A program made the position numbers and the translations under genes. Positions 47,275 through 59,413 of a stretch of 64,000 bases of DNA are shown here, in pieces (position 1 is the first letter of the stretch; each line of letters starts with the position of its first letter). This DNA comes from Bacteroidota bacterium (lineage in GTDB: Bacteria > Bacteroidota > Bacteroidia > B-17B0 > Aurantibacillaceae), in NCBI GenBank assembly GCA_021323535.1, contig JAJONO010000011.1, positions 1 to 64,000 of the forward strand, read 5' to 3'. The notes beneath the pieces were generated by a model. That model was not told the origin of the DNA, did no database searches, and saw only the letters and a program-made list of their open reading frames with translations.

Positions 47275-47280
47275 TCGTTG

Positions 47281-49506
47281 ATGAGAAATTACTTAATTGT
47301 TTTTTCTTTATTCATTCCTTTTTTTGGTTTCGGCCAGCGGGAGAGGCTTGATTCGTTGTTAAGAACCGAGAGGTTCATCAAAGAAGATACAAACGGCGCA
47401 AAACACCTTCTTATAACAGGAAAGCTCTTCAAGAAAATAAATCCCGACAGTTCATCACTTTATCTCGACCATTCATTCAGGCTTTCAAGTAAAATTAACA
47501 GCCACCCTTATATTTTAAAAACATATTTTGAACGGGTGAGCCTGATAAGAGCATCTGGCGACATTAAAAAGCTTGTCGACACCCTTAAAGTTGCTCACCA
47601 GCTGGCTTTGAAATACAATGAAAGTCTGTTTATTTCAAGATTCAGTCTCGACCTTGGTGTTGCTTACCGGCGAATAGGCGATTACAATAAATCCATCCGG
47701 CATCTTCTTGAAGCGCTTGAAATAGCACAGAAAAACAATTATAGAACCGATGTTTACAATTCATTAAATAGTCTTGCCAACACCTATTCCCAGGCCGGTC
47801 TCATAAAAAAATCGCCAGTGGATCTGAACCGCGCCCTTGAATATTACGAAAAAGCTTACCAGGTTGTGGATAAGACCAATAAAGGAGTTGTTGCTATGGT
47901 TCAGAATAACCAGGGTGTAACGTATTATAATCTCGGCCAGATAAAAAAAGATTCGAACGATACTAAAAAATCGATCGAGTATTATAAAAAAGCGTTGCAG
48001 CTCAGATCTGAAGTAAATGATTCGAGCGGAGTAGCATCTGACTATAATAACATTGGAAGCGCTTATCATGATCTTTGTGAAAATTTTAAGAGCTACCAAT
48101 ACCTTGACGACGCACTTGAAAACTATCAGAAGGCTGTTGACATTGATAAAAAAATAAACTCTCCTGATAAATATTCCAACCTCGCCAATTATGCAGGGCA
48201 TCTTGCTTACGTAGGTAAGTTCAGGAACGATAAAAAGATGATCCAGAACGGTGTAATCCTCTTAAAGGAAGCGCTGCAAACATCTTTACAAAACCGGGAT
48301 CTCCATATTACCATGACCATTTATGAAAGCCTTAATTATTGTTTTGAGGCTCTTAAAATTCCCGACAGCGCTTTGGTTTATCTTCACAATTACATCATGG
48401 TAAAAGACACTTTACTTACAGATGAAAACAAACAAGTAGCAGAAGAACTTGCCACAAAATATGAATCAGATCTTAAGGATACAGAGAACAAAAATTTAAA
48501 ACAACAGGCTGATCTGAGAGAAGAAGTTATTTCAAGAAAATCAAACACTATTAAGATCATGATTGCCGCTTCAGTAATTATGCTTATTCTGATCGTTATG
48601 GTTTTTATTTCGAGGCAAAAAATTACAAAATCACGCGAACTGATTAAAAAGCAGAAGCAGGAAACCGAAGAACAGAAATTACTCATCGAAGAAAAACAAA
48701 AAGAGATACTCGATTCTATAAATTATTCAAAACGTCTACAGGACGCTGCTATTCCTTCAACCGATTATTTTAAATCCTTATTACCTGAATCATTTATTTA
48801 TTACAAACCAAAAGACATTGTTGCAGGAGACTTTTATTGGATACATGCCGTTAAACGCGATTCGTTAAACGTTAAAGGTTCAGAACCAATAACCACCCCG
48901 ATAACTAACGGCCCCCAACTTATCCTGGTTGCCGCCGCCGATTGCACAGGCCATGGTGTTCCGGGCGCATTGGTGAGTATTGTGTGCCTAAATGCATTAA
49001 ATCGCTGTATCGATGAATTCAATCTCAGCGAACCTTCAAAAATACTGGATAAAGCAGCGGAGATCATCCAGCAATCTTTCAGGCAAAGTGAAAACGATGT
49101 AAAAGACGGAATGGATATTGCACTCTGTCTTCTTGATCTCGAAAATAAAAAAGGATTTTTCTCAGGGGCCAACAATCCGGTTTGGATCTTAAGCGGAACC
49201 CATGTAAAAGAAATAAAAGGTGATAATCAACCTGTAGGGCAGCAACACATTCCCAAACCTTTTAGTGAGCATGAATTTGAATTACACGCCGGAGATACCA
49301 TTCTGTTGTGTACCGACGGTTACGCCGACCAGTTCGGTGGTCCGAACGGGAAGAAACTCAAAACAAAAAACTTCAAGGAAATATTTCCTGAAATGAATTC
49401 GAAACCTATTACCGACGTCCACAAAAAAATTGAAACCTTTTTTATTGATTGGAAAGGAACCCATGAGCAAGTGGACGATGTGTTAGTGATTGGAATACGT
49501 ATATAA
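47281..49506 (+). CDS. TPR-SpoIIE phosphatase, paralogue 8
   Basis: A 741-residue paralogue separated from the tandem series and placed six bases after carB. The ATG at 47281 gives MRNYLIVFSLFIPFFGFGQ as signal peptide. TPRs about 60-380, transmembrane helix about 423-443 (IKIMIAASVIMLILIVMVFI), linker LIEEKQKEILDSINYSKRLQ. SpoIIE motifs: AGDFYWI, ADCTGHGVPGALVSIVC, KDGMDI, CTDGYADQFGG, EQVDDVLVIGI; it groups with paralogues 1 and 4. A heptad-repeat insertion (48849-48920) lies between motifs 1 and 2. The position after carB suggests it was moved here and uses the carB promoter. Confidence 0.92.
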   Translation: MRNYLIVFSLFIPFFGFGQRERLDSLLRTERFIKEDTNGAKHLLITGKLFKKINPDSSSLYLDHSFRLSSKINSHPYILKTYFERVSLIRASGDIKKLVDTLKVAHQLALKYNESLFISRFSLDLGVAYRRIGDYNKSIRHLLEALEIAQKNNYRTDVYNSLNSLANTYSQAGLIKKSPVDLNRALEYYEKAYQVVDKTNKGVVAMVQNNQGVTYYNLGQIKKDSNDTKKSIEYYKKALQLRSEVNDSSGVASDYNNIGSAYHDLCENFKSYQYLDDALENYQKAVDIDKKINSPDKYSNLANYAGHLAYVGKFRNDKKMIQNGVILLKEALQTSLQNRDLHITMTIYESLNYCFEALKIPDSALVYLHNYIMVKDTLLTDENKQVAEELATKYESDLKDTENKNLKQQADLREEVISRKSNTIKIMIAASVIMLILIVMVFISRQKITKSRELIKKQKQETEEQKLLIEEKQKEILDSINYSKRLQDAAIPSTDYFKSLLPESFIYYKPKDIVAGDFYWIHAVKRDSLNVKGSEPITTPITNGPQLILVAAADCTGHGVPGALVSIVCLNALNRCIDEFNLSEPSKILDKAAEIIQQSFRQSENDVKDGMDIALCLLDLENKKGFFSGANNPVWILSGTHVKEIKGDNQPVGQQHIPKPFSEHEFELHAGDTILLCTDGYADQFGGPNGKKLKTKNFKEIFPEMNSKPITDVHKKIETFFIDWKGTHEQVDDVLVIGIRI
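48849..48920 (+). repeat. Heptad repeat insertion inside SpoIIE domain of paralogue 8
   Basis: Seven in-phase 7-bp units from 48849: CGTTAAA, CGCGATT, CGTTAAA, CGTTAAA, GGTTCAG, AACCAAT and AACCACC, then CCGAT, AACTAAC, GGCCCCC and AACT. GTT units precede AAC units, so the element is an imperfect inverted repeat read as protein. Confidence 0.8.
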
Positions 49507-50884: not shown

Positions 50885-52288
50885 ATGGACAGAAACAGAA
50901 TAAATGTTTTATACATCGACGATGAACCCAATAACCTGATAAGTTTCAGGGCCAACTTCAGAACGATGTACAATGTTTACACCGCTCAGTCGGGTGAAGA
51001 AGGCAAAAAGGTATTGGACAATATTGATATTAACGTTGTAATCACCGATCAGAGGATGCCTAACATTACCGGTGTCCAGTTTCTTGAATCTATTATCAAA
51101 GATTATCCCTATCCTGTAAGAATAATCCTTACCGGTTATTCAGATATTGAAACAGTTATTGAGGCCATTAACAAAGGACAGGTTTACCGCTACATTCTTA
51201 AGCCATTCGATGCCCAGGAACTGAAACTCATTATCGAAAATGCCTACGACCTTTATCTCTTCAGGAAAAACAGTAAAGAAGCTTTAAACAAATACCATCA
51301 TCTTTTCGAAAATTCCAACGACACTATTTTTATTCTCGATGTTCACGGTCGTTTTAAAGAGATGAACTCAAGTGGTTCTAACCTTTTTAAGATACGCAAA
51401 GAAGATGTTCCTGAAACTGATCTTATTTCCCTTTTCATAAACCGTGATGAATACAAAAAACTTTACGGTAGCCTTGTAGTAAGTGAATCAGTGATTGACC
51501 GCCCGGTTAAACTCAAGAACATGAACAAGGAAGTTCTTGAATGCTTGTTCTCTGCTTCAAAGATCGTGGAAAACGGCATTGTAACAGGTTACCACGGAAT
51601 GATACGCGACATTACCAAACAAAAAGAAATTGAGAACCTGGTGATAAGAACCATTATTGAAACCCAGGAAACAGAACGTACGCGCTTCGGAAAAAATCTT
51701 CACGATGGTGTTGGCTCCATGCTGGCATCCATCAAAGTAATGTTGCATAAACTCACTATTAAGGATGAGCAGCTAAAAGAAAATCCCCAGCTGAAAAACA
51801 TTTTTAACGCGCTTACATCAACGATTGTGGAAATGAGGAACGTGTGTTTTAATATTATGCCACCGTCTCTGCAGTATCTTGGTCTCACCTCTTCTATTGT
51901 TGATCTGTGTATGCAATACGAGGCCTCAATGTCTGTTAAATTCGATGTCAATATTCCAAATGATTTTCCGAGATTGAACGCCCACCTGGAGTTGGCTATT
52001 TTCAGAATTGCGCAGGAATTTATTAACAATTCACTCCGACACGGAAAAGCAACCAACATTAAGCTCGACTTTTCTAATCATAAAGATAAGATCCACATTG
52101 TTTTAAGAGATAATGGAAAAGGATTTAACGTGAATTCGTATCCGCTGGGTCTTGGAATTAAAAATATTAAATCGAGGATACAATCCTATAACGGCGAAAT
52201 AAAGATCAACAGTACGCCTACTGTTGGAACCGAATTTGAAATAACCTTACCAAAGTTAAACCCGATAGAAGTTACCCTCATGAACTGA
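50885..52288 (+). CDS. REC-PAS-HisKA_3 hybrid sensor kinase
   Basis: A 467-residue soluble protein. Receiver at 1-125 with the DDE acidic pocket, acceptor Asp in VVITDQRMP (about 56) and LKPF Lys (about 107); PAS about 137-255 (HHLFENSNDTIFILDVHGRF); HisKA_3 dimerisation domain with His in FGKNLHDGVGSML (about 272); NarX-type ATPase with NNSLRHG, DNGKGF and GLGIKNIKSRI. It should receive a phosphate or signal through its own receiver. The receiver is close to that of the small gene at 57545. It converges with the 7TMR-DISM kinase and overlaps it by 33 bases. Confidence 0.9.
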   Translation: MDRNRINVLYIDDEPNNLISFRANFRTMYNVYTAQSGEEGKKVLDNIDINVVITDQRMPNITGVQFLESIIKDYPYPVRIILTGYSDIETVIEAINKGQVYRYILKPFDAQELKLIIENAYDLYLFRKNSKEALNKYHHLFENSNDTIFILDVHGRFKEMNSSGSNLFKIRKEDVPETDLISLFINRDEYKKLYGSLVVSESVIDRPVKLKNMNKEVLECLFSASKIVENGIVTGYHGMIRDITKQKEIENLVIRTIIETQETERTRFGKNLHDGVGSMLASIKVMLHKLTIKDEQLKENPQLKNIFNALTSTIVEMRNVCFNIMPPSLQYLGLTSSIVDLCMQYEASMSVKFDVNIPNDFPRLNAHLELAIFRIAQEFINNSLRHGKATNIKLDFSNHKDKIHIVLRDNGKGFNVNSYPLGLGIKNIKSRIQSYNGEIKINSTPTVGTEFEITLPKLNPIEVTLMN

Positions 52289-54400
52289 GGACGGCGGTGT
52301 AAATGGTAATTTAATGATGAATTCAGCGCCCATTCCCTCTTCAGAAATTATGGTTATCTCGCCACCATGGCTCTTGATAATACCATAAACAATGGAGAGC
52401 CCCAATCCTGTTCCCATTCCAACTTCTTTTGTTGTAAAGAAAGGTTCAAATACCTTAGATTGATTGGCCTTTGAAATACCTATACCATTATCTTTAATGC
52501 TTACCTGAACACCATGCTCCATTACCGAAGTGGTAATAATGATCTCTCCTTCACCTTGTGTATATTGTTTTGACCCAATGGCGTGAACGGAGTTACTGAG
52601 CAGGTTCATAAACACCTGGTTGAGTTTACCAGGATAACATTCAATCTGTGGAAGTTTACCATATTTCTTGGTTACTTTGATTTTTTCGCCCACAATATGA
52701 TTGTTGAGAATGGAAATTGTTACATCCATTCCTTCATGAATGTCGCATATTGAATGTGATATTTCATCTGACCTCGAAAAATTTTTCAGCCCCTTTACAA
52801 TTTCCGCAGTACGATTGGCTCCCTCATCAATACCCTTTAAAAGCATATTTATCTCTTCAATAACGTAATCCAGATCCAGTTTATCTTTCAGTTCTTTAAT
52901 AACCTCCAGTTTCTGTTCAAGGTTTTCGCCGCTTTTTATCTCACCGTATTTATCCATTACCTCCAGAATTTCGTCAATGTCGCGCTTTAATGGTTTTACA
53001 TTGGCAAGAACAAAGTTGATAGGGTTGTTGATCTCGTGAGAAATACCCGCGGTAAGCTGCCCGAGCGACGCCATTTTTTCAACATTAACAAGATGCGCCT
53101 CCGCCTCTTTTAAGCTCCGGTTCGTAGCCTCAAGTTCGGCCGTGCGTTCTTTTACTTTTAGTTCCAATACATGAGCCTGTTCGCGAATGATGCGTTCGTT
53201 TTCCTGTAAAAGACTGAGTGATTTTAGTTGTGATTCTTCTTTCTCTTTGGTTAATACATTTATTTTATCGGCAAGCGCGAAAGAAATAAGAGCCGCTTCA
53301 ATAGCTGAACCCACCGGCATAAGATAAACTGTGTAAGTATTATAAGGCAAAATACCCACATCCTTAAGCGCGTAAACAAAAACCCCAACCAGGAAAATGG
53401 ACCAGGCATACAAAAAGAATTTGGCTGAACGGTTTCCTTTTTTTCTGATTTTATTGGCAACAAAAAGCATATAAAAAGAAAGGATCATGGCGCAACCCTG
53501 AATTACATTATAAAAAACCGCGGAAAGATTTATAATATCAAGAATGATATACAGAATATAAATAGCAGTGAGTATATGAAATCCTTTGTGCAGCGAAGGC
53601 ACGTATTTTTTTGTATCAAGAAATACTTTTATAAATTCGATAGCCGCCAGTCCAATAAGGGCGCTCAGAATATAAAGACTATGTTTTGCCAGCCAGGTGG
53701 ACCCGGGCCAGAAAAACTGGAACGTATATCCTAACAAACAAAGCTGAACCAGGCCCACGACCAGAATATACCCAACGTAATAAAGATATACCCTGTCTTT
53801 TACCGTAAAATAAATAAAGATGTTGTAGAGAAACATGATCAGTATTAGTCCGATGTAAATCCCCACGAAAAGATTTTCGCGGCGCGTACTTTCAAGAACT
53901 GCCTTTTCATTACCAATATAAAGCGGCGCCATGATCTGTCCCCCACTTCTTATTTTCATAAGGTAGGTGCCCGACATTTCTTTCTTAAGATTAAGATCAA
54001 AAATGTAGCCGGGATCGTTGTGGTTTCTTTCAAAAAACTTCTCGTTCTTTCCTGTGGAAGATAACAGATGAATTTCGGAGGTAACCTCGTAAAGCTCCAC
54101 TTCATCCAGATTGGGATATGCGAGCTTTAAGAACATATTCTCTTCATTTACATTTCTTACCGAAAATTTTAACCAGAATACAGATGCGCTTACTCCAAGA
54201 TTGGGAGTTACTTTTTCGTTGACTTTAAACTGCCTGCTAAGAACATCTGTAACACTAAGCGAACCGCTTTCATCTTCAAAGACCTGAATGGTTGGTCCTC
54301 CCAACTGAATGAGTTCATTGGATTTTTTTCGTTTTGCAACTCCATCTGCCAGGCATAAGACCGGAAACAGTATTGCCAGAAGAAGCGTAAGTTTTTTCAT
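52256..54400 (-). CDS. 7TMR-DISM sensor histidine kinase
   Basis: A 714-residue receptor kinase. Signal peptide (MKKLTLLLAILFPVLCLADG), extracellular 7TMR-DISMED2 domain about 35-165 (VSASVFWLKFSVRNV, a typical sequence), seven transmembrane helices about 175-385, a coiled coil, HisKA with phospho-His in LTAGISHEINNPINF (about 454), and HATPase with NLLSNSVHAIG, DNGIGI and GTGLGLSIVYGI. 7TMR-DISM proteins sense small diffusible ligands such as sugars. It is the last gene of an operon with the ThiF-nitroreductase and acyl-synthase-like genes; five bases separate it from the latter. Confidence 0.93.
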   Translation of the reverse strand: MKKLTLLLAILFPVLCLADGVAKRKKSNELIQLGGPTIQVFEDESGSLSVTDVLSRQFKVNEKVTPNLGVSASVFWLKFSVRNVNEENMFLKLAYPNLDEVELYEVTSEIHLLSSTGKNEKFFERNHNDPGYIFDLNLKKEMSGTYLMKIRSGGQIMAPLYIGNEKAVLESTRRENLFVGIYIGLILIMFLYNIFIYFTVKDRVYLYYVGYILVVGLVQLCLLGYTFQFFWPGSTWLAKHSLYILSALIGLAAIEFIKVFLDTKKYVPSLHKGFHILTAIYILYIILDIINLSAVFYNVIQGCAMILSFYMLFVANKIRKKGNRSAKFFLYAWSIFLVGVFVYALKDVGILPYNTYTVYLMPVGSAIEAALISFALADKINVLTKEKEESQLKSLSLLQENERIIREQAHVLELKVKERTAELEATNRSLKEAEAHLVNVEKMASLGQLTAGISHEINNPINFVLANVKPLKRDIDEILEVMDKYGEIKSGENLEQKLEVIKELKDKLDLDYVIEEINMLLKGIDEGANRTAEIVKGLKNFSRSDEISHSICDIHEGMDVTISILNNHIVGEKIKVTKKYGKLPQIECYPGKLNQVFMNLLSNSVHAIGSKQYTQGEGEIIITTSVMEHGVQVSIKDNGIGISKANQSKVFEPFFTTKEVGMGTGLGLSIVYGIIKSHGGEITIISEEGMGAEFIIKLPFTPPSSVHEGNFYRV

Positions 54401-54405
54401 ATCAG

Positions 54406-55134
54406 CTAACTTTTATAAGTGAGATCGTCTACATCGGTTAAAACCAGATCGTATTCAACTTCAACATCACCTCTCGTTCCGTGTTCTGTTCTTGTTTGTA
54501 TCGGATTTTCTCTCAGACCGAGTATCCTTTCCCTGTCGTAAGGTTTAGCCGAACTGAGTGTTTTCGCATTTAAAATACCAAGCGCCCTGGTAATATATCT
54601 TTCGTCCGGATAGGGAAATTGTCCGTTTTCGCCTAAGGTATCATTTATTTCAAAACCAACATCTGTAAACATTTTCAAAGTATATTCGGCGCAAATGCCA
54701 ACCATGGTTCTGAATTTTAACTGGTTCACAATGGAAATGGCTGCTCTTGTAAGAAAAAAGCTGACACCTACTCCTTTTACACTCTTAGAGTTCCAGAGTC
54801 CGCAAAGTTCGCCAACACCGCCATCTATTGCATAACGTTTCACAAGATCGAATGTTCTGTCATCCAATCCACCAATGGCGGTTTCAATAGGTAACGGATA
54901 TAATCCTTTCGCTACTTCAACACGAATGGCGCCAACCATCTCACCTGTGGTTGTATCCTGCGCTGCAATAACATAAGCAGAAGGGTTGTAGGTCCACTTG
55001 TCGTTATACGAAGTTACTTTCATAACCTTATAATCAACCAGCACCTGCATGTGCCCCTTCATATACTCTTTACATTTTTCCCTGTTGGTTATTGCTCTGA
55101 AAGCAGTTATTTTTATTTTATTATTTTCTTCCAA
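54406..55134 (-). CDS. GNAT-fold N-acyl amino acid synthase-like protein (FeeM/LuxI-like)
   Basis: A 242-residue cytosolic protein starting at TTG 55134, immediately after the stop of the upstream gene. The pattern YVIAAQDTTTGEMVGAIRVE (about 54-73), then GELCGLWNSKSVKGVGVSFF and MVGICAEYTLKMFTDVGFEI, fits the acyl-transfer fold shared by GNAT enzymes, FeeM N-acyl amino acid synthases and LuxI autoinducer synthases. These use acyl carrier protein or acyl-CoA to acylate an amino acid or derivative. Assignment rests on fold pattern, so substrate is unknown. Sandwiched between a ThiF-nitroreductase fusion and a receptor kinase, it may make a signal. Confidence 0.65.
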   Translation of the reverse strand: MEENNKIKITAFRAITNREKCKEYMKGHMQVLVDYKVMKVTSYNDKWTYNPSAYVIAAQDTTTGEMVGAIRVEVAKGLYPLPIETAIGGLDDRTFDLVKRYAIDGGVGELCGLWNSKSVKGVGVSFFLTRAAISIVNQLKFRTMVGICAEYTLKMFTDVGFEINDTLGENGQFPYPDERYITRALGILNAKTLSSAKPYDRERILGLRENPIQTRTEHGTRGDVEVEYDLVLTDVDDLTYKS

Positions 55135-57459
55135 TTATAAAAATTTTAGTACTTGTTCTACCGGGTATCTTACCGATCTTGATTTTGGAGGGTTATCAAT
55201 AAAAAAACGGAACAAAATTACTTCACCTTTATCTTCTTTTATGGAGAATAGTTCTTCGAATTTTTTTCTCATACTCAATGCTTCCTGTCTCATTTCTTCC
55301 GGAAACAGGTTTTTGTCTCCGTGTAATAAGTTGTTAAAGATAAGAACAGAAAGCGATGCCGGATGCACAGAGATATTATCTTTATTAGCAGCGAGCCATA
55401 TTCTCTGAAAAGCCCTTCCCCCGGTATAAAAATCATTGCAGCTGAAATGCGGTACGGTTAACAGGCCAACAGCCGAAGACGCAGCTATGCTTTTTCTCTG
55501 AATTTTTTCGAGTGCTTTTCCAACCTTCCATTCATTAAGGTATTGTACCACGTTCCAATCCTTTAAGACCCTCCACCCGGCGAGTTCGGATGGCGTAAGG
55601 TCAACGGTTCCAATAAGATCAACACCATTTCCCATTTCCCTGGCCTGTTCAGGCGTCCATCTTATTTCGGCCAGAAAATCTTTATGGCCACCTTTATGCG
55701 TTACGCGAATTCTGTCCATAACCGCGGTAACTTCCCTGATCTCGTCCAGAATTTTTTCATCGGATATGATCTGCATATCGGCGCCGGGAATGGTTTGCGC
55801 TATTTTTTTTAGTTTCAGTAATCTTTCTTCATCAATTTTTACTCTTTTTCCAATGTTACGGTTTGTTAACCTCAAGGGGATTGTGGATACAAGTTCATCA
55901 CAAATATGATCTTCGGTTTTCCACATTAATTCATTATTTTTTTCTTTAAAGAAGCGATAAACCGAAATTAATTTACTGTTTTTATCCAGCTCCTGTTTTT
56001 CAGCAATGACTTCTAATTTTAATTCGTGTGCTTTTAAAACAAGATTTTCGGTGGCCGCTCCCAATCCCACAAACGATGTTGTATTACCACAATCGAGCAA
56101 ACCGGCCGAATAACGGTCGTCGAAAAATAAATACAGATGTTTATTGTGCCAGATCCATTTCCATGGCTGAATGTTTGCCCCGGTTGGCGCCATGGTTGCA
56201 TACTTTACGAGTTCCGTCACCGTGTTTTTATCAAGATCGAGTTGCGATACCAGCGCTTTATCATTTCTCTTTTTAATGATCGAAAGCATTTCTTCTTGGC
56301 TGATCTCAGGTCTTAAAATGAATCTGTGATGGTCGTCTTCTATTGGTTCTTTTTTATCGGCAACAATTTCTTCGAGGTCAACAAAATATCTTCCCGAATC
56401 ATGAAACTGATCCAGTAAAATCCTACGGCATACATCGGCTCCGAGCCCACCTCCCAATACTACCGACGAAGCCAGCTGCGGCCAGGTGGTAATGGTTTGT
56501 TCTATCTCCAACATGGAAGCTTTCATGCGTGTTGAAACTGTATCGAGGCCCAACATGGGTAACAGGTAAGGAACTTTTTCTTCGTTGGTTTTGGCTTCTT
56601 TTACTTTATTAATATCCAGATGATCGATAAAACCGTGAAGGATAGGTCGTTTCGGATCCAGGTCAAAACGTTCTACATCTAACATACCGCGGTCTGCCGT
56701 ATCCATTACAACAGGAACACCCAATTCCCGTGCTTTCTGGCGGCAAAGAATTTTCACAAGAAGTCCATCGCATTCATCTACAAGAATATTTAGCTTTCCG
56801 CCTTTGGTGATAAAATCTCCGATGTTTTCTTCCGAGGCTCCTTCATGGAAACACGTTACCTTAAAATACGGATCCATTTCGGCTATCTCCCGTGCTACAG
56901 CAACGGTCTTGGCAATGCCGAGGTTGTGAATTCCTGTCCTTATTCTGTTAAGATTGCTGAGTTCAAGAATATCAAAGTCGGCGAGCCTTAATTCGCCACA
57001 GCTACGTTCCATGGCAATGGTAAGAGCAATGGATTGTCCGACAGAGAGTCCGATGATCCCGATTTTTTTCTCAGCCAGTATTTTTTTTTCTTCCGGTGTG
57101 ATCTTATACTGATTACGATTGGTTCTTACTTCTATAAATTCTTCTTCATCAAGTGTATGCACCAAACGGTTGCTCCAGGGATAAAACACCCATACACCAT
57201 ATTCTTCATGTGGTATTTCGCCTATGTGTTTTTTCGCGGCTTCGGTAAGATCTGCTTTACTGAAAACTTTTGTAGGGTTTTTTGACTTTACATATTCCTC
57301 AACCTGCCCAAGTATTTCGTCGAATACCTGTGTTGTGTCTGAAATCACCGATTCCATCGCTGCCCTGTCGGTTGCTGCTTTCAAACGGAAAAGTAAGGGA
57401 CGGTGAGAAGTAGCATTTTCCCTGCTTTTAATTGTTAGTGCATTTAGTATTGATTTCAT
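55135..57459 (-). CDS. ThiF-nitroreductase fusion protein (Rv1355c-like family)
   Basis: A 774-residue protein; ATG 57459 (MKSILNALTIKS) is preferred over a frame start 45 codons earlier, which would overlap the divergent receiver gene. Residues about 130-390 form an E1/ThiF adenylyltransferase domain with the nucleotide loop IGLSVGQSIA (about 135) and ADFDILELSNLNR, the canonical adenylation motif. Residues about 395-700 form a nitroreductase-like FMN domain with MAPTGANIQPWKW (about 420). No CxxC zinc pairs are obvious. The fusion resembles the family named after mycobacterial Rv1355c, of unknown reaction. It leads the operon with the acyl synthase-like gene and the 7TMR-DISM kinase, without any gap to the former. 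Confidence 0.82.
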   Translation of the reverse strand: MKSILNALTIKSRENATSHRPLLFRLKAATDRAAMESVISDTTQVFDEILGQVEEYVKSKNPTKVFSKADLTEAAKKHIGEIPHEEYGVWVFYPWSNRLVHTLDEEEFIEVRTNRNQYKITPEEKKILAEKKIGIIGLSVGQSIALTIAMERSCGELRLADFDILELSNLNRIRTGIHNLGIAKTVAVAREIAEMDPYFKVTCFHEGASEENIGDFITKGGKLNILVDECDGLLVKILCRQKARELGVPVVMDTADRGMLDVERFDLDPKRPILHGFIDHLDINKVKEAKTNEEKVPYLLPMLGLDTVSTRMKASMLEIEQTITTWPQLASSVVLGGGLGADVCRRILLDQFHDSGRYFVDLEEIVADKKEPIEDDHHRFILRPEISQEEMLSIIKKRNDKALVSQLDLDKNTVTELVKYATMAPTGANIQPWKWIWHNKHLYLFFDDRYSAGLLDCGNTTSFVGLGAATENLVLKAHELKLEVIAEKQELDKNSKLISVYRFFKEKNNELMWKTEDHICDELVSTIPLRLTNRNIGKRVKIDEERLLKLKKIAQTIPGADMQIISDEKILDEIREVTAVMDRIRVTHKGGHKDFLAEIRWTPEQAREMGNGVDLIGTVDLTPSELAGWRVLKDWNVVQYLNEWKVGKALEKIQRKSIAASSAVGLLTVPHFSCNDFYTGGRAFQRIWLAANKDNISVHPASLSVLIFNNLLHGDKNLFPEEMRQEALSMRKKFEELFSIKEDKGEVILFRFFIDNPPKSRSVRYPVEQVLKFL

Positions 57460-57483
57460 GGTATTAATATATTTAAAAAAGCT

Positions 57484-57491
57484 TAACTTTG
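57484..57491 (+). promoter_or_regulatory. -7 promoter box of the single-receiver gene
   Basis: TAACTTTG matches TAnnTTTG. It lies downstream of the ATG at 57458, so that ATG cannot be used from this promoter; the next in-frame start is TTG 57545. Confidence 0.55.
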
Positions 57492-57544
57492 TAAAAGAAA
57501 AGCACTCAAAATTAAAGCCTGAATATTTAACCCCCAACTTAACC

Positions 57545-58009
57545 TTGAAAGGAAAAGAATTAAATATTTTATATGTTGACGACGAAGTAAACAACCTCGT
57601 GGCTTTTAAAGCTAACTTTAGAAAAGACTATAAAGTTTTTACTGCGGAATCGGCCGCTGAAGGTTTTGAGATCCTCAGGAAAAACACCATACAGGTTATT
57701 ATCACCGATCAGAAAATGCCTAACATGACAGGCGTTGAATTTCTTGCCTCTCTTATCACGGAGTTTCCTGATCCATTCAGAATGATTCTTACAGGTTTCG
57801 CTGATATTAAAACGATCATTGATGCTATCAATATGGGGAAAGTAGACCGTTACTTTCTTAAACCATTCAATAAAGAGGAGCTTAAAAAAACAATCGACGA
57901 CGCATTCGAGATTTATTATCTGCGTGAAGAAAAAAAGAAACTTGTTGAAAAACTGATGGAGGTAAATGATCAGCTGGAGTTTATCCTCAGACAGAAGTTG
58001 CTGTCTTAA
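57545..58009 (+). CDS. Single-domain response regulator
   Basis: A 154-residue receiver starting at TTG 57545 (MKGKELNILYVDDE...). An ATG at 57458 overlaps the divergent gene start and precedes the -7 box, so I reject it. It has the acidic pair in YVDDE, acceptor Asp in VIITDQKMP, and LKPF Lys. A helical tail of about 30 residues follows (LREEKKKLVEKLMEVNDQLE). The receiver is closely similar to that of the REC-PAS kinase at 50885 (shared ITDQ-MPN-TGV-FL pattern). It is divergent from the ThiF-nitroreductase operon and could link it to the kinases. Confidence 0.88.
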   Translation: MKGKELNILYVDDEVNNLVAFKANFRKDYKVFTAESAAEGFEILRKNTIQVIITDQKMPNMTGVEFLASLITEFPDPFRMILTGFADIKTIIDAINMGKVDRYFLKPFNKEELKKTIDDAFEIYYLREEKKKLVEKLMEVNDQLEFILRQKLLS

Positions 58010-58012
58010 TTA

Positions 58013-59413
58013 TTATTCTTTTCGGAGCAATTCTTTTAAAGCCGACTTAAGAACTCCAAAATTCTTAACCACTACTATTAACACTGCAAGTACAATAAGC
58101 CAGTTAATCCTGGCCTGGTAACGTTCTGAGGGGGCACTGATACCCGCGGTAAAAAAAGCGTTGAATAAAACGGCAATTCCAAACATACCAAGCAGTTTTA
58201 CAGATAACAGATCCATTCTTTTATAAATTCCGGAAAAGGCAATTAAAAGTAGACCGAAGAGTGAACAAATGTTGATCCAAAAATTAAATTTATTGATTTC
58301 GTTCAGATATGCTCTGAGATACTGTGTATTTTGTCGCGAATTTTCATAATCATTCAATTCATTTTTAAACCTCCAGGATATTTGTCCATATTGCTCGGTT
58401 CCTTTTGGAAAAGGAATTAATCCGCTACCAATATCGTTTCTCGTGAGTTGCGTTCCCGAATACAATAGTGATTTATACATGTTGAAAAAAATGTATTTTG
58501 GTTTACTTTTAATGCCATTGATTATTTTAGTGTATTCTTCTTTTGAATTTTCCCAACCGCCGGTTTTATAAAAAACGCTGTTTGCCTCCCATAAAAAACT
58601 ATTAAGGTTTGTTGGAAGACTGTCTTTATACTGGCATAATTTACAATTTCTGTATTCCTCTTTATCACAATTTTCATTCAGGAATTTCTTTAAGGTGCCA
58701 TTGTCTGCAAAATGTGCCATAAGAAAAACATGGGAACCTTTAGATAATTCATATTTATTGCCAATCATATAATTCATTGACGGTATAATTATCCAGGAAA
58801 TAAGCACCACAAAAACCGCGATTATTATGTTTCTGCGTTTTATTTCCAGGTAAAAAACAGTCTTTTTCTTATAATTCCAGAATTCAAATATCACAATGAA
58901 GAATATAACAGATGACGCAATTAATAAATGGGATAAATGAATTGAATTTGAGAGGAGAATAATCAGTGAATAAACAATTTGTTTGATAATACTCACACTT
59001 GGCGAATACACCATAAGAAATAGTACCATGGCAATGATAGGCGCTGAAAAATCAGGCATGATCTGGTTCGTATACCATGCTATACTGGTAAAAAATGTAA
59101 GAAAAGCCGTAATAATTATAAAATAAAAAGGAGCCCTCTTTGAAGAAAAAAACAATAGACAAACCTCCAGAAGAAGCCATGATTGAATCAGGTTCTGAAT
59201 CAGGATAACAGTCCATAAAGAATAGTTCAATGAAAAAAGCCGCACAAATAAACCGTAAAATATGGGTCTGTCCCGGGGAATAAAAAAATCAAAGCCGGAA
59301 TGAATATACGTTGCGCTATCCGGGTAAATAAGGGCATAACCATTAAATAACCCAACAGAAAATAAAATAAGTGCCCCTATGAGAATAATGTAAAGTTTAT
59401 AAGATGTTTTCAT
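58013..59413 (-). CDS. Multi-pass membrane protein, GT-C glycosyltransferase-like
   Basis: A 466-residue protein with about ten hydrophobic helices. The first periplasmic loop has YPDSATYIHSGFDFFIPRDR, with an acidic residue after helix 1 as in GT-C/PMT-type glycosyltransferases, which use lipid-linked sugars. A soluble segment of about 150 residues (about 230-375) with CDKEEYRNCKLC contains paired Cys. Substrate is unknown and the GT-C assignment is tentative. It is four bases downstream of the OmpA-like gene, so it is probably in the PorP operon. Confidence 0.6.
   Translation of the reverse strand: MKTSYKLYIILIGALILFSVGLFNGYALIYPDSATYIHSGFDFFIPRDRPIFYGLFVRLFSLNYSLWTVILIQNLIQSWLLLEVCLLFFSSKRAPFYFIIITAFLTFFTSIAWYTNQIMPDFSAPIIAMVLFLMVYSPSVSIIKQIVYSLIILLSNSIHLSHLLIASSVIFFIVIFEFWNYKKKTVFYLEIKRRNIIIAVFVVLISWIIIPSMNYMIGNKYELSKGSHVFLMAHFADNGTLKKFLNENCDKEEYRNCKLCQYKDSLPTNLNSFLWEANSVFYKTGGWENSKEEYTKIINGIKSKPKYIFFNMYKSLLYSGTQLTRNDIGSGLIPFPKGTEQYGQISWRFKNELNDYENSRQNTQYLRAYLNEINKFNFWINICSLFGLLLIAFSGIYKRMDLLSVKLLGMFGIAVLFNAFFTAGISAPSERYQARINWLIVLAVLIVVVKNFGVLKSALKELLRKE

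Follow-up and report, generated by a model that had tools for sequence, protein, structure and literature searches.

Two genes for small-molecule enzymes and a gene for a 7TMR-DISM histidine kinase lie end to end in a genome of the Aurantibacillaceae (Bacteroidota bacterium, assembly GCA_021323535.1, contig JAJONO010000011.1, positions 1 to 64,000; this whole stretch of 64,000 nucleotides is referred to hereafter as the window), which raises the question of whether the kinase senses what the enzymes make. We hold with moderate confidence that it does, and that the locus represents a Bacteroidota signal-receptor module with its own 7TMR-DISM kinase as the sensor of a capped N-acyl amino acid. 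This is supported by the kinase staying linked while tailoring enzymes are swapped and gene order is shuffled, and by a layout like that of the Phc system of Ralstonia. The initial annotation had described three leftward genes separated by 0 and 5 bases and flanked by a REC-PAS-kinase (50885) and a divergent receiver (57545) with similar receiver domains. Calling of open reading frames (ORFs) confirmed the coordinates of the three minus-strand genes (55135-57459, 54406-55134 and 52256-54400), and the two receivers proved to be 50% identical over 151 aligned residues. The elements of the locus are:

57545..58009, plus strand: single receiver (REC), 154 amino acids (aa), TTG start; Response_reg at 70.8 bits in the longer ORF
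57460..57544, no strand: 85-base intergenic region between the divergent genes, presumed from coordinates to hold both promoters
55135..57459, minus strand: oxzB/trzS-like ThiF cyclase-flavin oxidase fusion, 774 aa, ATG at 57459 (NF005901, Pfam)
54406..55134, minus strand: predicted oxzA/trzA-like N-acyl amino acid synthase, 242 aa, TTG start (AlphaFold2 model, fold comparison)
52256..54400, minus strand: 7TMR-DISM histidine kinase, 714 aa, presumed receptor (Pfam, catalytic residues, linkage)
50885..52288, plus strand: REC-PAS-HisKA_3-HATPase hybrid, presumed relay (Pfam)

The enzyme pair and the kinase

A Pfam scan of the synthase yielded nothing above any cut-off, Autoind_synth included, and a sub-threshold Scabin-like match (E 0.14) was taken as chance. 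Its profile gave four matches to PDB sequences (E 0.15-0.74), two of them GNATs, and because these were weak a comparison of folds was required. An AlphaFold2 model based on alignment A1 (41 sequences) reached a mean predicted local distance difference test score of 94.3. Foldseek ranked the N-acyl homoserine lactone (AHL) synthases MesI and BjaI first, followed by FeeM, while in a second structural comparison (VIA) FeeM was at the top (Z 17.6, root-mean-square deviation 2.5, 179 residues), with LasI at Z 16.2 and BjaI at Z 15.8. Plain GNATs were close behind in Z (16.4 for 1xeb) but aligned over ~145 residues only, compared to 169-200 residues for LasI, BjaI, RpaI and TofI. The acyl-transfer fold on which the original proposal depended is therefore present in the predicted structure, and the model identifies the 54406 product as an N-acyltransferase with a predicted fold nearest to FeeM and the LuxI-type synthases. 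FeeM and BjaI are also named as the structures nearest to TyzA, which performs the acyl transfer in tyrazolone synthesis (PMC10404671).

The adjoining ThiF-oxidase scores 51.0 bits for ThiF and 25.2 bits for Nitroreductase in Pfam and meets the Rv1355c family model NF005901 (779.2 bits, cut-off 476), and its profile matches the oxidase part of the Acg structure 2ymv (E 1.2e-20). Residues R172, K184 and D231 of the ThiF site and R530 and R534 of the oxidase are invariant among 21 family sequences and may include counterparts of the TrzS catalytic residues D217 and R540. In the reported Trz pathway, TrzA (Rv1356c) N-acylates tryptophan and TrzS (Rv1355c), itself a ThiF-oxidase fusion, carries out an ATP-dependent cyclization and then an O2-dependent desaturation to give an N-acyl tryptazolone (PMC12856293); OxzAB of Pseudoalteromonas rubra produces tyrazolones and phenazolones, according to later papers citing the OxzAB work. 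TrzAS, OxzAB and TyzACB all resemble the window in combining a FeeM-fold N-acyltransferase with an adjoining ThiF-flavin oxidase. As the ThiF-oxidase and synthase match this published N-acyl oxazolone pathway, the enzyme chemistry is already known, and the window product is probably a capped N-acyl amino acid, here an oxazolone. A shared pathway for the two enzymes is further supported by their fusion in another genome, where a single 1006-aa frame (L090:4025-7045) carries both. Thus, the "undescribed signalling system" of the initial annotation does not hold for its enzyme half (PMC12856293, PMC10404671), while its other half, sensing by the kinase, is suggested by linkage, enzyme exchange and the Phc-like layout. 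Unlike the window, the published systems come without a kinase in the accounts available: the word "kinase" is absent from the main texts of PMC12856293, PMC10404671 and PMC12479983, and trzAS of M. tuberculosis is reported to adjoin cyclic-di-GMP genes instead (PMC12856293). What N-acyl oxazolones do physiologically for the bacteria that make them is a "major unresolved question" according to the 2025 TrzAS paper (PMC12856293).

The kinase matches 7TMR-DISM_7TM (173.8 bits), 7TMR-DISMED2 (90.6), HATPase_c (87.8) and HisKA (29.1), and H455, N599, D637, G639, G641, G663 and G665 are invariant among 42 module kinases; judged by its sequence, it is a complete 7TMR-DISM histidine kinase with catalytic motifs. 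LadS and RetS are likewise 7TMR-DISM proteins with a DISMED2 domain, but the window kinase differs from them in being tied to a small-molecule synthase, whereas calcium binding is reported for LadS (PMC7695008). In Arachidicoccus ginsenosidivorans (L141) the kinase is split in two frames of 551 and 162 aa, by a frameshift or a sequencing error.

Linkage of synthase and kinase across genomes

The synthase was matched in 46 of 247 genomes of the class, and all 45 loci besides that of the window form set A; set B consists of the best 80 of at least 557 confirmed candidates, picked by the ThiF-oxidase alone. The two sets overlap slightly, and their 121 synthases represent 115 clusters at 95% identity. 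Linkage was counted over all ORFs with thresholds that we set at 60 bits for synthase, ThiF and REC and 250 bits for the sensor, and in set A the kinase had to be co-oriented with the synthase and no more than 3.5 kb away.

The synthase-kinase pair was present in 116 of 125 loci (sets A and B), so that the genes, whose adjacency elsewhere had been named as decisive for the original proposal, are nearly always neighbors where the synthase is present. A kinase stood by the synthase in 43 of the 45 set A loci, accompanied by a ThiF protein in 37, a REC-kinase in 36 and a single opposite-strand REC in 38. The two misses are L078, where the contig stops at the synthase, and L083, whose synthase is only remotely related (74 bits) and adjoins a ThiF gene. 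The 80 loci of set B contained a synthase in 76 cases, a kinase in 73, a REC-kinase in 63 and a single opposite-strand REC in 66; five of the seven without kinase run off the contig (L089, L091, L151, L155, L165), and L119 and L131 do not. Cut contigs thus explain six of the nine kinase misses over both sets. In a draw across the phylum the synthase was found in 13 of 395 genomes, and each of the five new loci had the kinase adjacent or one gene off. Cultured strains with the module are, going by their record titles, Pedobacter steynii DSM 19110 (L103), P. caeni DSM 16990 (L156), P. metabolipauper DSM 19035 (L129) and Daejeonella lutea DSM 22385 (L153).

A kinase that is a neighbor by chance was rejected on the basis of this linkage, the small number of 7TMR-DISM proteins per genome and the distribution of the sensor profile. 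PF07695 gave 49 matches over 24 sampled module genomes (of the 46), one to four per genome; the best match was the module kinase in all 24 and the sole one in eight. With gene numbers in the thousands, as estimated from genome size, adjacency by chance would be expected with a probability below 1% in any one genome. The sensor profile A4 produced 43 matches at ≥377 bits, all of them in genomes with the synthase, against a top score of 315.8 bits among the 201 genomes without it, a gap widened by the use of 34 module kinases to build the profile; the module kinase of genome G127 scores 313.7 bits only. The 7TMR-DISM proteins ranking next, among them the window genome's own paralogue on C4, were followed at 20 loci; single-sequence queries gave no match to synthase, ThiF-oxidase or REC among the up to eight neighbors listed for each, although a distant REC could escape such queries and one of these loci (L173) is a short contig. 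Kinase-like neighbors were seen at two of them (L179, L187). Residues distinguishing 49 module sensors from 20 sister sensors are mostly in the last helix and the linker, and the idea of reading a ligand site from them was dropped on account of this concentration.

Could kinase and enzymes have stayed together through operon inertia or block transfer, with no functional coupling? Presence of the module is patchy, as seen from the counts for class and phylum above, and the five genus mates and two family mates of the window genome among the class genomes are without the synthase, from which we conclude that the system is accessory. We nevertheless regard this explanation as very improbable, since linkage persists at synthase identities of 26-55% and kinase identities of 37-50%, tailoring genes have been exchanged and gene order has changed: oxzB sits between oxzA and the kinase in 4/45 loci of set A and 26/80 of set B (30/125 in total). 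Between the last biosynthetic gene and the kinase, the gap has a median of 2 bases and measures ≤60 bases in 99 of 116 loci, with start positions called mechanically.

Exchange of tailoring enzymes

A census of the tailoring gene in 51 loci (window, set A and phylum draw, with L064 and L194 classed from fragments) revealed a ThiF-oxidase in 25 and ThiF alone in 17, the kinase-less L083 included. Four loci (L051, L061, L070, L071) carry a Methyltransf_11/25-type S-adenosylmethionine-dependent methyltransferase, one (L062) a Methyltransf_2 O-methyltransferase, and two (L192, L193) an isoprenylcysteine-methyltransferase-like gene scoring 95-98 bits, below the curated cut-off of 160. The gene is missing in the remaining two, one of which is the cut contig L078. 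Exchange is apparent even between genomes sharing one genus code: G005 and G089 are neighbors by both sensor (support 96) and synthase (support 100) phylogeny, and their tailoring genes differ (ThiF-oxidase versus O-methyltransferase). Either cap, a closed ring or a methylated carboxyl group, would eliminate the free carboxylate, provided that the methyltransferases act there.

It is possible, and we put it forward tentatively, that quorum-type signals of Bacteroidota include a hitherto undescribed family of N-acyl amino acids whose carboxylate is capped (as oxazolone ring or methyl ester), each with a dedicated 7TMR-DISM kinase, and that lineages alter their signal by swapping in another capping enzyme, with synthase, receptor and relay left in place. 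If so, oxazolones would be signals. With the kinase kept by the synthase despite tailoring swaps, the hypothesis of an oxazolone signal becomes testable in cultured strains carrying the module. Two loci (L098 and L130) have two synthase genes by one kinase, possibly reflecting two acyl or amino acid specificities.

Proposed signaling and its likeness to known systems

We propose that, after N-acylation, the ThiF domain would adenylate the carboxylate and close the oxazolone ring, which the flavin domain would then desaturate to give a neutral AHL-like lipid. Once released, this product, made by the cell itself or by a neighbor, may be bound and recognized by the 7TMR-DISM kinase, which would hand on phosphate to two receivers, that of the REC-kinase hybrid and the single one; these in turn are expected to act on output regulators, located elsewhere in most loci. 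The REC-kinase gene is convergent with the kinase gene in the window, their 3' ends overlapping by 33 bases, and is co-directional and behind the kinase in most related loci. A co-directional gene ≤60 bases behind the REC-kinase encodes a second REC in 14/21 cases in set A and 52/56 in set B, and a NarL-type regulator in 2/21 and 3/56, respectively. Seven set A loci have the kinase but no REC-kinase, two of them (L048, L051) near contig ends.

The operon shared by kinase and enzymes would also be expected if the kinase sensed another cue, such as antibiotic, oxidative or envelope stress, and controlled the timing of oxazolone production, the product being an effector and not the ligand. Oxazolone production in proteobacteria is reported to be triggered by antibiotics below inhibitory levels (PMC12856293), and the calcium binding of LadS offers a precedent for a different ligand (PMC7695008). 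Still, a DNA-binding regulator is rare in the module, as the NarL-type counts indicate, and a sensor of an outside cue need not stay by the synthase once the tailoring chemistry changes; we consider this explanation rather unlikely. A lower probability still is given to the product being a membrane lipid or an antibiotic, with the kinase guarding envelope or immunity in the producing cell. N-acyl tyrosines, which are related compounds, have antimicrobial activity (PMC12856293) and 7TMR receptors are located in the membrane, but no recurring resistance gene was seen among the families listed from 354 flanking proteins of set A. When these proteins were grouped, the second REC was the commonest family (14 loci), and the next families occurred in 8, 7, 6 and 6 loci, mostly in genomes that their family codes show to be related. 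A family of four loci (L057, L058, L059, L071) resembles, on inspection by eye, an ABC transporter, which would allow for export.

Several observations weigh against recognition of the module product by its kinase. L083 holds a related enzyme pair with no kinase, and two ThiF-oxidases (L119:2829-5153, from Blastocatellia, and L131:513-2828) have no synthase- or sensor-profile match nearby. DNA-binding output is rare, as described, and TrzAS products are reported to be mostly intracellular (PMC12856293). Sensor type and tailoring enzyme tend to go together, but this tendency is not statistically supported. On 40 common rows, the tailoring label changes 7 times on the 7TM tree, 8 on the whole-sensor tree and 9 on the ectodomain tree, compared to 10 for synthase, 10 for REC and 11 for the kinase core (on larger sets, 9 for the sensor with 49 rows and 13 for the synthase with 50). 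Approximately unbiased (AU) tests were non-significant, the three methyltransferase rows being groupable at p 0.358 (kinase), 0.28 (synthase) and 0.507 (REC), and in tree distances the synthase shows a stronger correlation with REC (0.75) than with the sensor (0.55). For both reasons co-evolution of sensor and tailoring enzyme is not claimed.

The preferred signal-receptor reading has a parallel in the quorum-sensing operon phcBSRQ of Ralstonia, whose signal, a fatty acid methyl ester, is a product of PhcB and is detected by PhcS (PMC8578825, PMC11960443). Both systems combine a small-molecule enzyme, a sensor kinase, a receiver-kinase hybrid and a receiver with no DNA-binding domain (PMC8578825), a likeness of layout only. 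The module sensor is a 7TMR-DISM protein, unlike in Phc, and a methyltransferase, as in Phc, occurs in some related loci only, whereas the window has a ThiF-oxidase and a FeeM-like synthase instead. By analogy the module would work like a Phc-type system, but we do not file it as a Phc member, because the window has no methyltransferase and the likeness was compared by layout only. With LuxI/LuxR the module shares the synthase fold and, as predicted, a neutral acyl lipid product with a small ring; it differs in that the synthase has no Autoind_synth match and in that sensing is proposed to occur through a membrane kinase and not a LuxR-type receptor.

No published synthase-kinase linkage was found for N-acyl oxazolone or N-acyl amino acid genes, and no paper on 7TMR-DISM in Bacteroidetes, in a search of open-licence literature, a scope which leaves novelty unproven; for oxazolones with ThiF proteins in Bacteroidetes, the same literature yielded the papers already known. 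Overall, the module is real and strongly conserved and its enzymes belong to a known pathway, while its signaling role and receptor would be new. Such a role would suggest that 7TMR-DISM receptors can take a lipid-type ligand and that Bacteroidota possess a quorum-type system.

Within the window, the divergent receiver ORF opens at 57458, and the TTG at 57545 is favored as its start because many homologues measure 153-160 aa. The top NCBIfam model for both window receivers is of the NosR type, but far under cut-off. A sigma-70-like match lies on the minus strand at 57495-57466, inside the divergent intergenic region; promoter-like matches are rarer than in shuffles (7 vs 14.3), and the promoter placed there is therefore presumed. 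Terminator-like matches are commoner than in shuffles (11 vs 4.6), and one (52226-52207) lies directly past the kinase stop. Nearby genes encode a 466-aa protein with no Pfam match at E ≤1 (58013-59413) and a TPR-SpoIIE phosphatase-like protein (47278-49506), ~1.4 kb from the REC-kinase.

Relatives of ThiF or the oxidase were also found in four plasmid loci from other phyla (from 18 records), where neither the synthase profile A1 nor the sensor profile gave a match; a GGDEF gene is close by in one of the four. On a Streptomyces plasmid, a stand-alone ThiF gene (L169:6917-8715) overlaps a GNAT gene, making this a candidate oxazolone or acyl-amino-acid cluster, and an annotated sensor protein and response regulator are ~5 kb away from the pair. 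On a Nitratidesulfovibrio plasmid, a ThiF-family gene with ThiF and oxidase profile matches (L170:5174-8098) lies among PEP-CTERM genes.

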